Positions 3,970-14,092 of a stretch of 22,000 bases of DNA are shown here, in pieces; position 1 is the first letter of the stretch; each line of letters opens with the position of its first letter. This DNA is from a virus. The translations under genes were made by a program, and so were the position numbers. The DNA lies in IMG/VR virus record IMGVR_UViG_3300031566_006737, positions 1 to 22,000 of that record; one strand, written 5' to 3'. The notes beneath the pieces were generated by a model. That model made no database searches. It was not told the origin of the DNA and worked only from the letters and a program-made list of their open reading frames with translations.

Positions 3970-4000
3970 AACGATCCACAATGAGCCTGAGCGTTTAAAC

Positions 4001-4072
4001 GGGATTTACGGGATTTACGGGATTTACGGGATTTACGGGATTTACGGGATTTACGGGATTTACGGGATTTAC
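4001..4072. repeat. 9-base tandem array GGGATTTAC x 8
   Basis: Eight perfect head-to-tail copies of GGGATTTAC begin 31 bases after the helicase stop codon. The array passes directly into the 11-base array without a spacer. In one frame it would read as Gly-Ile-Tyr repeats, but no gene uses that frame. Confidence 0.97.
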
Positions 4073-4200
4073 GGAATTTAGACGGAATTTAGACGGAATT
4101 TAGACGGAATTTAGACGGAATTTAGACGGAATTTAGACGGAATTTAGACGGAATTTAGACGGAATTTAGACGGAATTTAGACGGAATTTAGACGGAATTT
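4073..4200. repeat. 11-base tandem array GGAATTTAGAC x 11 plus partial
   Basis: Eleven perfect copies of GGAATTTAGAC (4073-4193) are followed by a partial copy GGAATTT that runs into ATTAGAAGGAG. The unit is related to the adjacent 9-base unit (GG-G/A-ATTTA-C) but has a 2-base insertion. The 11-base length puts copies on nearly the same face of the helix. It lies between the helicase gene and the next small gene. Together with the 9-base array it accounts for most of the 279-base gap and is a candidate replication origin or partition-like site. Confidence 0.97.
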
Positions 4201-4248
4201 ATTAGAAGGAGTTGATTTAACCCGTCCGAGCCGTCCGGGAAAGGATAA

Positions 4249-9226: not shown

Positions 9227-9499
9227 ATGAACTGTTTAAAAAAGAACGGCCATCTTGACGGATCACATTTCACAATATGGGTATGCATCATACTTGCATT
9301 ATCTGTTGTTCCAATAATTCTGCTGTTTAGAAGCATTGGAGATGTTATCCGAAAAGGGCCGAATCATTTTGCCGACCCGTGGAAAGAAGCACTGGATTGT
9401 TTTAAAGATATATACCCAAGGAGGAAGGATGTACGAACACTATTTAAAAACTATAAAACCAAGCGCCATTGCCAGACAAATTCGCCACCGTTTATATAA
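9227..9499 (+). CDS. small membrane protein, probably with a recombined 3' end
   Basis: A 90-residue frame starting at ATG 9227. Residues about 15-34 form one hydrophobic membrane segment (FTIWVCIILALSVVPIILLF), followed by a soluble tail. From residue about 64 the frame runs through a boundary repeat and 71 bases into the downstream methyltransferase gene in another frame, ending in a basic sequence unlike the rest. This suggests that the original end was lost when the methyltransferase cassette joined here. Function unknown; small one-pass proteins are common in phage accessory regions. Confidence 0.55.
   Translation: MNCLKKNGHLDGSHFTIWVCIILALSVVPIILLFRSIGDVIRKGPNHFADPWKEALDCFKDIYPRRKDVRTLFKNYKTKRHCQTNSPPFI
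9415..9428 (+). promoter_or_regulatory. boundary repeat / ribosome binding module, copy 3
   Basis: An exact CCCAAGGAGGAAGG is followed directly by ATG 9429 of the methyltransferase. Unlike most copies it lies inside the reading frame of the upstream gene, where it encodes YPRRKD rather than a PKEEG ending. Confidence 0.85.
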
Positions 9500-10073
9500 A
9501 ACACTAATAGGAGGTTCGACCAAAGCGTTGGAGTTTGGAATAGGATATGGGTATTTTCGCGACTACTGTTTCAATGAAGGAATAGATTATACCGGAGTTG
9601 ATTTTTCCAAGGGATTAGCAGACTTGGCAGACATAGATACGATCATAACGCCAATACCAGAGGGGATGTCGCTTGTTCCTTATGGATATGATCTTATATT
9701 TGCAGAACACTTCATTGAACACATGGATGGACATGACTCCGTGATGAAGTTTCTTATTGGATGCAGGAAAAGATTAAATAATGGAGGAAGGATTATATTG
9801 CTCTACCCTAATATGAATAAACACTTTTGGCATGATCCAACTCATCAATATCCCACCAACAAAAAGCGAATTGAAAGGTGTTTAATTGATGCGGGATTTC
9901 ATGTTATGGAAAGCGATGATTATGCTCATTGCCTTGTTGGTGTTTTTGATACCATTCTGATTAAACTAATTGGATATTTAATGCCCGCAAATTTGAGGGT
10001 ATCATTACATTTTTGCGTACATTCATACACGAAAGGATTAGCGCAGGAAGCCACCAAGGTAGGAGAAAAATGA
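9429..10073 (+). CDS. class I SAM-dependent methyltransferase
   Basis: A 214-residue protein. ATG 9429 is chosen over the longer in-frame ORF at 9336 because it follows the boundary repeat exactly. SAM-binding motif I is ALEFGIGYGYFRDY, with an acidic end to strand 2 (YTGVDFS). A YDLIFAEHFIEHM motif IV region and GGRIILLYPN follow, as in the Methyltransf_11/23 families. No DNA-methyltransferase catalytic motif (DPPY or PCQ) is present, so the substrate is more likely a small molecule, glycan or protein. The gene is visibly more AT-rich than its neighbours, suggesting separate acquisition. Its stop (TGA 10071-10073) overlaps the next start. Confidence 0.8.
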   Translation: MYEHYLKTIKPSAIARQIRHRLYKTLIGGSTKALEFGIGYGYFRDYCFNEGIDYTGVDFSKGLADLADIDTIITPIPEGMSLVPYGYDLIFAEHFIEHMDGHDSVMKFLIGCRKRLNNGGRIILLYPNMNKHFWHDPTHQYPTNKKRIERCLIDAGFHVMESDDYAHCLVGVFDTILIKLIGYLMPANLRVSLHFCVHSYTKGLAQEATKVGEK

Positions 10074-11074
10074 ATGAGCTACATCTATTTGCAGGAGCAG
10101 GAGGAGGGATCTTGGGTGGAATGCTGCTCGGACACACCACCGTTTGCGCTGTTGAAATCGAAGAGTATCCAAGAAAAGTCCTCCTCCAGCGGCAACGTGA
10201 CGGAATCCTCCCCAAATTCCCCATCTGGGACGATGTCACCACCTTCGACGGAAAACCATGGAGGGGAAAAGTTGATGTCGTGTGCGGAGGATTCCCCTGC
10301 CAGGACATTTCAGCCGCTGGCAAAGGTGCTGGCATCGAGGGCAAAAGAAGCGGGCTGTGGTCAGAGTTTGCAAGAATTATCGGTGAAGTACGACCGCGAT
10401 ACGCATTCGTGGAAAACTCACCAATGCTTGTGGGAAGAGGACTTGCCGTGGTCCTCGGTGACCTTGCCGAAATGGGGTATGATGCAAGGTGGTGTATTTT
10501 GGGAGCTGACGATATTGGAGCGCCCCATCGTAGAAAAAGAATATGGATCTTGGCCCTCGCCAACCTGCAACATGGTTTCGGGCGGCCCGAACCACAACAG
10601 CCCGCAGGTGATAGCCGGCAATCACGGGATCAATCTTCACGGCGCGGTTTTGAAGATATGGCCGACCGCATCTGCGCGGGATTGGAAGGACACGCCGGGC
10701 ATGAGCCAAACCGGCACCAACCCGGACGGCTCAACGCGGAACAGGACAGATCAACTGGCGCGCGCGGTTTATGCCGATGGTGGCAAAACGACCCCGCAGA
10801 AGTTTCCGACCCCGAATGCGCGGGATTGGAAGGGCAAGCCGGGACCGAATGCGAATCAACGCGAATCATCCCTGCCGCCGGTTGTGGGGGAGGATGTAAA
10901 GACCGTGGGCAAACTCAACCCAGATTGGGTAGAGTGGCTTATGGGGTGGCCCATCGGGTGGACCGACTTAAAGCCATTGGCAATGGGCAGGTTTCAATCG
11001 TGGCTGCAACAGCATGGGAACTATTAGCAGAAAACGACCGGGCTGAGTTGATCGGCGAACAAACTCAAGATTAA
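10070..11074 (+). CDS. dcm: DNA (cytosine-5) methyltransferase
   Basis: A 334-residue protein with the C5-methyltransferase motifs in order: motif I LHLFAGAGGGILGG (4-17), motif IV GGFPCQDIS (73-81, catalytic Cys77), motif VI ENSP (115-118), motif VIII GAPHRRKRIWILA (150-162), and late motifs IX-X RVDRLKAIGNGQV (296-308). The target recognition region (about 165-285) is divergent and holds two copies of CAGLEG. It methylates cytosine in a sequence that cannot be predicted here. No restriction partner is visible, so it is an orphan enzyme, probably protecting phage DNA. The start is ATG 10070, with AGGTAGGAGAAAA upstream. A 317-codon ORF lies inside it in the +1 frame. Motif VI reads ENSP in place of the usual ENV. 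Confidence 0.9.
   Translation: MNELHLFAGAGGGILGGMLLGHTTVCAVEIEEYPRKVLLQRQRDGILPKFPIWDDVTTFDGKPWRGKVDVVCGGFPCQDISAAGKGAGIEGKRSGLWSEFARIIGEVRPRYAFVENSPMLVGRGLAVVLGDLAEMGYDARWCILGADDIGAPHRRKRIWILALANLQHGFGRPEPQQPAGDSRQSRDQSSRRGFEDMADRICAGLEGHAGHEPNRHQPGRLNAEQDRSTGARGLCRWWQNDPAEVSDPECAGLEGQAGTECESTRIIPAAGCGGGCKDRGQTQPRLGRVAYGVAHRVDRLKAIGNGQVSIVAATAWELLAENDRAELIGEQTQD
10074..11027 (+). CDS. overprinted +1-frame ORF inside the cytosine methyltransferase
   Basis: A 317-codon frame starting 4 bases after the methyltransferase ATG (ATGAATG), so both can use the same ribosome binding site. The product is Trp- and Ser-rich, with SWKTHQCLWEEDLPWSSVTL, two ARDWK motifs (SARDWKDTPG, NARDWKGKPG) and LNPDWVEWLMGWPIGWTDL near the C-terminus. 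I recall proteins with ARDWKD and WVEWLMGWPIGWT motifs in many phage genomes, next to or overlapping such methyltransferases. A stop-free frame this long in about 55% GC DNA is unlikely by chance. It could still be a shadow kept open by methyltransferase codon use. Function unknown. Confidence 0.5.
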   Translation: MSYIYLQEQEEGSWVECCSDTPPFALLKSKSIQEKSSSSGNVTESSPNSPSGTMSPPSTENHGGEKLMSCAEDSPARTFQPLAKVLASRAKEAGCGQSLQELSVKYDRDTHSWKTHQCLWEEDLPWSSVTLPKWGMMQGGVFWELTILERPIVEKEYGSWPSPTCNMVSGGPNHNSPQVIAGNHGINLHGAVLKIWPTASARDWKDTPGMSQTGTNPDGSTRNRTDQLARAVYADGGKTTPQKFPTPNARDWKGKPGPNANQRESSLPPVVGEDVKTVGKLNPDWVEWLMGWPIGWTDLKPLAMGRFQSWLQQHGNY

Positions 11075-13078: not shown

Positions 13079-14092
13079 ATGGATAAAAAAGCAGAAAAAG
13101 CAATGAGTGACGCGGCTCATGCGAAAACGGACGACGCGGGTAAAACAGGCGGTTCAGAGCCAACTAGCTTTGATGATTTAATCAAAGATAATGCTGTTGA
13201 ACCGGGGGTTTCTGAGCAGCCGGAAGCGGAAGAAACTGCAAGCGAAGCGGAAGAATCCACCGAGGAAGAATCCACCGAGGAAGAATCCACCGAGGAAGAA
13301 TCCACCGAGGAAGAATCCGAAGAAACGCTTACAGATGAGGAACGCGCTCAGCTGAAGAAGACGACGACGGAGCGGATCGAAAAGAAGATCGGGAAGGCCC
13401 ATGCAAAGCAGAAGCAAGCCGAGGAAAGAGCAAGTGCCGCAGAACAGGAGCGCGAAGAACTGGCGGGCCGTGTGGCCGAGCTGGAAACACGCCTTGAGGC
13501 AGTTGATGTTAATGCGGCCGCTGCAGCCAGTGGAGTCAGTGAGCTTTTTCTGATCGAAAACGAGGCGGCGCTTGAAAAGCGCGGCGATGAGCTAACCGCG
13601 TATGTCGATGCTCTGGATGGATGGATTGACGAAAATGAACCGGGTGAAATAATGACACTTGAAGACGGTAAAGAGTTCACCTATGCGGAAGTAAAGGCCA
13701 AGCGCCGGCACTTCAATCGCATGGTTGAGCGTGAATTGCCCAGGGCGCGGAAGATTTTATCCCAGCGCGCGAAAGCAAACGATACCGCCCGAAAATTGTA
13801 TCCCGATCTATTTAAGTCCACTACCGCAGCTCACCAGGAAATGCAGACGCTATTGCGGACGGTTCCGGGCCTTCGTGCCCAGCCTGACGCGCGGCTGCTG
13901 ATTGGCCGGATGATCGAAGGCCGGAAGCTGGAAAAGAAGGCTGCCACCGTCAAAGCTGTTGCAAAACCGAAACCGACTGCACCGAAACCCCCGGACACAG
14001 GATCTCCGGCCGCGCGAGCGACCGGCAGAGAGGCGCTGAAACATGACCCCAATAGAGTTAGAGAAACTGGCTCTTGGGATGATTTAGTATAG
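13079..14092 (+). CDS. probable capsid scaffolding protein
   Basis: The start is ATG 13079 (MDKKAEKAMSDAAHAK), with GAGG upstream; a GTG at 13007 is in frame but has no ribosome binding site. The 337-residue protein has an acidic, disordered N-terminal region with four ESTEE repeats, then a coiled coil (about residues 85-145 from this start) and a helical middle. A basic, proline-rich tail (AKPKPTAPKPPD) ends in a short acidic motif (SWDDLV). Its position directly upstream of the capsid gene and this composition are typical of scaffold proteins, which shape the procapsid and then leave. No protease domain is seen. The assignment rests on position and composition, not on a sequence family. Confidence 0.65.
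   Translation: MDKKAEKAMSDAAHAKTDDAGKTGGSEPTSFDDLIKDNAVEPGVSEQPEAEETASEAEESTEEESTEEESTEEESTEEESEETLTDEERAQLKKTTTERIEKKIGKAHAKQKQAEERASAAEQEREELAGRVAELETRLEAVDVNAAAAASGVSELFLIENEAALEKRGDELTAYVDALDGWIDENEPGEIMTLEDGKEFTYAEVKAKRRHFNRMVERELPRARKILSQRAKANDTARKLYPDLFKSTTAAHQEMQTLLRTVPGLRAQPDARLLIGRMIEGRKLEKKAATVKAVAKPKPTAPKPPDTGSPAARATGREALKHDPNRVRETGSWDDLV
13253..13312 (+). repeat. 15-base tandem repeat x 4 in the scaffold gene
   Basis: Four perfect copies of GAATCCACCGAGGAA encode Glu-Ser-Thr-Glu-Glu. A degenerate fifth copy (GAATCCGAAGAA) follows. Perfect identity at DNA level implies recent slippage expansion, and the frame is preserved. Confidence 0.95.

Follow-up and report, generated by a model that had tools for sequence, protein, structure and literature searches.

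Two overlapping frames at the methyltransferase locus

The window, which is the whole 22-kb stretch of the virus record that we analysed, encodes a DnaB-like helicase and an SU10-like major capsid protein. The earlier note had drawn attention to two reading frames that lie one over the other on its + strand, on which all parts of the locus described below are located, and both were recovered. Frame A (10070-11074) encodes 334 aa and frame B (10074-11027), which is +1 relative to A, encodes 317 aa. As had been observed, the ATG of B is located 4 nt past that of A behind the same Shine-Dalgarno sequence, AGGAG (10061-10065), which is separated by 4 nt from the ATG of A and by 8 nt from that of B. 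The gene immediately upstream (9429-10073) encodes a class I SAM methyltransferase domain in the same frame as B. Its TGA (10071-10073) overlaps the ATG of A and abuts that of B, and translational coupling to both starts is possible. A candidate internal start of B (10260-10277) consists of GGAGGGG followed, after 8 nt, by an ATG (10275-10277) from which a B of 250 aa would be produced.

Frame A would encode a catalytic, alpha-like chain. Pfam PF00145 matched residues 3-168 (E=1.6e-34), the match ending at about residue 170, and this catalytic domain contains motifs I-VIII (10070-10564; GGFPCQD, VENSPM and APHRRKRIWI), including PCQ, with ENS rather than ENV as motif VI. Motif X (RLKAIGNGQVSIVAATAWELL, 10964-11044), which reads LKAIGNGQV, is present near the C-terminus. 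The AF2 model of A was confident at residues 1-165 and 307-332 only, the latter corresponding to the motif X helix, and residues 188-303 were predicted to be disordered. In agreement with this, Foldseek aligned the model to M.HhaI (E=1.6e-13) over 172 columns, which correspond to the large domain. The earlier note had assigned all major motifs to this frame. This holds for motifs I-VIII and X and does not hold for motif IX: motif IX and a TRD are absent from chain A, in which the corresponding stretch evolves neutrally (see below) and is predicted to be disordered.

Frame B would encode a nested, beta-like chain. No Pfam match was obtained for it, and phrog_1008, annotated as 'DNA methyltransferase', matched residues 43-299, covering TRD and motif IX, with E=5.3e-25. 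The N-terminal half of B (10074-10550) is open, shows weak protein constraint and is predicted to be disordered. It is followed by a TRD made up of three modules (10551-10913; WPSPTCN.., WPTASARDWK.. and FPTPNARDWK..), by the near-invariant motif IX (LNPDWVEWLMGWPIGWTDL, 10914-10970) and by a C-terminal tail (10971-11024) that is overprinted on motif X. The 16-bp repeat that had been noticed is exact, none being expected by chance; its copies are located in TRD modules 2 (10674-10689) and 3 (10818-10833) and are read as ARDWK in B and as CAGLEG in A. The AF2 model of B alone had a mean pLDDT of 54 and was confident only at the motif IX helix. PADLOC gave generic methyltransferase matches only for A and no match for B. 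Judged from the AF2 models, each chain alone looks incomplete.

Stop codons, start codon and selection

Synonymous shuffling of A was used as the null model for the occurrence of stops in frame B. For the window alone, shuffled versions of A contained on average 5.3 B-frame stops and the probability of finding none was 0.0003; the real frame B is, as had been pointed out, open for 317 codons, and the third frame of the locus contains 16 stops. To obtain unbiased relatives, 80 loci were fetched with residues 1-165 of A only. Over codons 2-150 of A these contained a single B-frame stop versus 702 third-frame stops, and hence the frequent +1 stops in homologues by which, according to the earlier note, a shadow ORF could be recognized were not found. 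No B-frame stop was present in 43 non-redundant A-fetched loci, versus 110 expected by synonymous shuffling. Conversely, over the stretch from motif VIII to motif IX, 33 loci contained no frame-A stop versus 107 expected given B. In a set of 88 non-redundant loci, which takes in loci fetched by B, 378 B-frame stops were expected from the codon usage of flanking genes and none was observed.

The single B-frame stop belongs to L129 (2505-2930 and 2934-3299), the sole A-fetched locus of the window's family with a stop in the N-terminal half of B. Its C-terminal half of B, with TRD and motif IX, is still open and an ATG is present shortly past the stop; full-length B may therefore not be essential. 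Frame A is interrupted early in a few relatives (L190, L242 and L253), which are perhaps decayed copies.

The start codon of B is conserved (10074-10076, in the context ATGAATGA). Codon 2 of A specifies Asn in 74 of the 88 non-redundant loci and is AAT each time, which creates the ATG of B; elsewhere in A, Asn codons are AAC in 145 cases versus AAT in 60. At the position of A's own start, 16 of the 88 loci lack a start codon, and A must begin further upstream there. The ATG of B is thus better conserved than that of A. Among the 62 loci with a recognizable Shine-Dalgarno sequence, this sequence is located 7-9 nt before the ATG of B (3-5 nt before that of A) in 42. Near motif IV, TTG or ATG candidates for an internal start of B are common, and codon use there is without clear bias.

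We then compared substitution rates in the two frames, as the earlier note had proposed. Substitutions in 63 close pairs were sorted by their effect in both frames, with bootstrapping, and SN/NS was calculated as the rate of A-silent, B-changing substitutions over that of A-changing, B-silent ones. For ordinary flanking genes (14 gene pairs) this ratio is 10.6. It was 4.74 [4.24-5.29] over motifs I-VIII, reflecting purifying selection on frame A and weak constraint on the N-terminal half of B, 0.52 [0.42-0.68] over the TRD, where frame A is an open, near-neutral linker, 0.18 [0.11-0.28] over motif IX, and 3.48 [2.65-4.69] over motif X. Coding constraint therefore passes from A to B, over the TRD and motif IX, and back to A at motif X. 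Over motif X, omega_A is 0.30, and constraint on the overlapping tail of B is undetectable (omega_B 1.05). The stretch of A that resembles motif IX (GRVAYGVAHRVDRL) is neutral (omega_A 1.25 [0.85-1.96]), and in B these bases are under strong constraint (omega_B 0.22 [0.16-0.28]). The apparent motif IX of A is a shadow of B.

These results bear directly on the choice between a real overlapping gene and a shadow ORF that the earlier note had left open, and stops, start codon and selection all speak for the gene. If frame B were a by-product of the composition and codon usage of A, A would be complete and GRVAYGVAHRVDRL would be its motif IX. The resemblance of A's final run to motifs IX-X and the weak constraint on the N-terminal half of B would be in keeping with this. 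It is difficult to reconcile, however, with an avoidance of stops far above that of synonymous shuffles, with the use of AAT in 74 out of 74 cases and with selection that acts on B over TRD and motif IX where A is neutral, and we consider it hardly credible.

Relatives with motifs in one chain or two

Homologues of B were also found outside the overlap, both as separate genes (e.g. Peaches gp76) and as segments of single-chain enzymes, as the earlier note had suggested searching for. Thus, phrog_1008 also matched split enzymes, in their second halves (1.7e-79), and the single-chain enzyme Akhila gp60, in its C-terminal half (2e-81). An hhalign comparison of B with single-chain enzymes (E=7e-12) aligned the PTP modules and motif IX, and the B profile matched a mixed set of mostly split and single-chain forms with E=1.1e-21. 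In the single-chain enzymes Akhila gp60 and Fancypants gp73, motifs I-VIII, LLPTPxARDxKG repeats, FPEWMMGWPAGWVT (motif IX) and LRIIGNGV (motif X) are all present in one frame. Since the TRD/IX segment is in frame with the catalytic domain in these actinophage enzymes, the two frames of the window correspond to two parts of one enzyme. Such homology is a further argument against B being a shadow. It also led us to reject a de novo overprinted gene, the core of B being homologous to single-chain and separate-gene TRD/IX. The earlier proposal that a family ending in WVEWLMG arose by overprinting of motif X consequently fits only the last ~18 residues of B, which are neutral in B and overlie constrained residues of A, and does not apply to its core.

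Two genes in frames corresponding to A and +1 are found in Peaches (gp77/76), Lilbooboo (gp32/33), CloudWang3 (gp91/90) and PhluffyCoco (gp42/43). The relatives moreover display natural REARRANGEMENTS, motifs IX and X being found in different frames. In L079, L034, L192 and L239, A ends after motif VIII and B holds TRD, IX and X, and in L312, L419 and L420 the TRD modules are in B and motif IX is relocated to A beside X. With the A of L312, nearly the entire TIGR00675 (dcm) and PF00145 models were matched, as against a match up to about residue 170 only with the A of the window; as motif IX is in frame A in L312, this identifies WVEWLMG as motif IX. Motifs IX and X thus move between chains yet stay conserved, which is best explained if they belong to one enzyme. 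At the level of sequence comparison, these results show that both frames are coding, which segment belongs to which frame, that B is homologous to single-chain TRD/IX, and that motifs IX and X have moved.

HNH-like ORFs, with weak to moderate Pfam matches, are located between motifs IX and X in L040 (1226-1588), L096 (3316-3723) and L109 (3412-3834). Motif X is in frame B in these three loci, and B is open through or past the HNH-like ORF, so that up to three frames overlap.

A single chain could also be made by ribosomal frameshifting, if ribosomes left frame A for B past motif VIII and returned to A ahead of motif X. The product would have the motif order of the single-chain enzymes, and the frames of split relatives do overlap just past motif VIII. 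This would require, however, that ribosomes shift efficiently twice, once in each direction, and neither the openness of A across the TRD nor that of B across motifs I-VIII would be needed, yet both are strongly maintained. In addition, the start codon of B is conserved and the annotated genes of PhluffyCoco do not overlap, which makes frameshifting very unlikely. The GeneTack frameshift survey reported other methyltransferase types only.

Most loci have one to five PTP-type modules per B. The last module of L052 and L385 is 85% identical while their A is 41% identical; conversely, L143 and L182 differ by replacement of the last module though their A is 98.7% identical. Over the last 32 codons before motif IX, frame B was the best-agreeing frame in all 251 distant pairs, with a mean identity of 66% versus 33% for A and 34% for the third frame. 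By these comparisons TRD modules are exchanged between loci, in frame B only; conservation of the swapped modules in B and not in A is again contrary to what a shadow ORF would give.

A probable two-chain enzyme and its extent

Taken together, these data make it very likely that two overlapping frames of the locus specify the two chains of a single DNA cytosine-C5 methyltransferase, both of which would be required. Ribosomes would start at 10070 for A and at 10074 for B, possibly with a second, internal start at 10275. Chain A would fold as the catalytic large domain with motifs I-VIII and be rejoined via its C-terminal motif X, and its middle would be an unfolded linker that needs only to stay open. 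Chain B would supply the small domain, with at least one PTPxARD recognition module and motif IX. The chains would assemble into one active, sequence-specific enzyme whose specificity may change through module swaps in frame B. Its most likely role would be that of an orphan phage methyltransferase that shields phage DNA from host restriction.

The small chain of M.EcoHK31I is said, in work by Lee from 1995, to be nested in the gene of the large chain in another frame. M.EcoHK31I (YGGCCR) consists of two polypeptides, the large one with motifs I-VIII, X and the TRD, and the small one with motif IX only (PMC3404938). The motifs of the window are divided in the same way, I-VIII and X being in its large chain and IX in its small one. 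It would be an enzyme of the same type, except that the TRD is located in the nested chain. In the window, moreover, B covers almost the whole of A, the two starts being 4 nt apart, which would set it apart from M.EcoHK31I. M.EcoHK31I is part of a restriction-modification system, whereas here no restriction gene was recognized among the genes scanned.

The large chain of M.EcoHK31I, reported with a predicted TRD (PMC3404938), could therefore in principle recognize DNA, and by analogy A might be an active enzyme for which B is a separate partner, e.g. one that regulates it or modulates its specificity, and is dispensable for catalysis. In the window type, motif IX and TRD modules are nowhere in A, whose TRD stretch is near-neutral and predicted to be disordered, and the movement of motifs IX and X between chains in relatives fits parts of one fold. 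A dispensable partner is thus very improbable.

M.AquI (CYCGRG), like M.EcoHK31I, is an accepted C5-methyltransferase of two polypeptides; its chains are split after motif VIII, the second containing the distal variable region and motifs IX and X (PMC3404938). This layout, with IX and X in the second chain, is met in L079, L034, L192, L239 and Peaches gp77/76; the window differs from it by having motif X in A and by an almost complete overlap. The phrog_1008/actinophage methylases (Akhila gp60, Fancypants gp73, Peaches gp76 and Lilbooboo gp33) share homologous TRD modules and motif IX with the window but are single-chain or encoded by separate downstream genes, instead of in fully overlapping frames. 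The multispecific C5-methyltransferases of Bacillus phages SPR and phi3T are single chains in which motifs VIII and IX are separated by exchangeable TRD modules that vary in number. The window family has the same variable, exchangeable modules at this position, in a second frame rather than in one chain. No prior description of an overlapping-frame phage methyltransferase of the window type was found in open-licence papers.

By pattern scan, at least 598 viral loci encode a relative of B, as do 371 loci in bacterial and archaeal species genomes, from phyla that include Proteobacteria, Spirochaetes, Verrucomicrobia, Planctomycetes and candidate phyla. Each of the 80 genome loci that were inspected has A, which is in the -1 frame in every case where B was located by the strict motif IX pattern. 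Two wider families (160 loci) were fetched by A alone, and 157 of these loci have a PTP module in B. The strict motif IX pattern placed 109 of them; nearly all of the other 51 have a PTP module and most have a divergent motif IX in B. In the 109 loci, B-frame stops are found up to a point ~100 codons ahead of the end of motif VIII and no further, which is about where the candidate internal start is located in the window, and from VIII to IX there are no frame-A stops versus 481 in the third frame. Selection switches to B at motif IX (SN/NS 0.49) and over the TRD stretch both frames are almost neutral (SN/NS 1.23); the case for these families therefore rests on motif IX and stop avoidance. Going by their sequences, B would have to begin inside A there, and a start of B 4 nt past that of A characterizes the subfamily of the window.

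The combined comparisons indicate this two-frame construction for a very large family of phage enzymes whose members are annotated as single genes. If so, hundreds to thousands of 'DNA cytosine methyltransferase' entries would be without their DNA-reading part, which would lie unannotated in the +1 frame. This would explain why clones of such entries may be inactive or their specificities unassignable. The locus would be a rare case of an almost gene-long same-strand overlap with both products belonging to one enzyme, and natural rearrangements would reveal the chain of each part. We consider it probable that most phage and prophage C5-methyltransferases ending in 'GRVAxGVxxRVDRLxxxGN' are half enzymes with the TRD in a hidden overlapping gene, that their specificity evolves through module swaps in a doubly read region, and that motifs IX and X migrate between frames. 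Obligate two-chain enzymes with permuted frames would then be a widespread class, overlooked or only half annotated in databases.

Only A is annotated in Acinetobacter phage ABMM1 and in a Leptospira plasmid. Stenotrophomonas phage SOVA965 (L176) has B alone annotated (1210-1710), as 'DNA-cytosine methyltransferase', the catalytic A (987-1730) being missing.

Finally, several repeats are present elsewhere in the window. At the record end (1-640), 78-bp and 45-bp repeats code for (PVAWPAILVP)-like runs and are a possible assembly or repeat-region artefact. Directly past the DnaB-like gene (3999-4201) are two tandem arrays, both near-perfect, which adjoin each other and are made up of related units, nine copies of ACGGGATTT and twelve of ACGGAATTTAG, the first array being read as a GIYGIYG run. 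A perfect 15-bp repeat encoding an EESTE run (13249-13318) is located in the gene preceding the major capsid gene.
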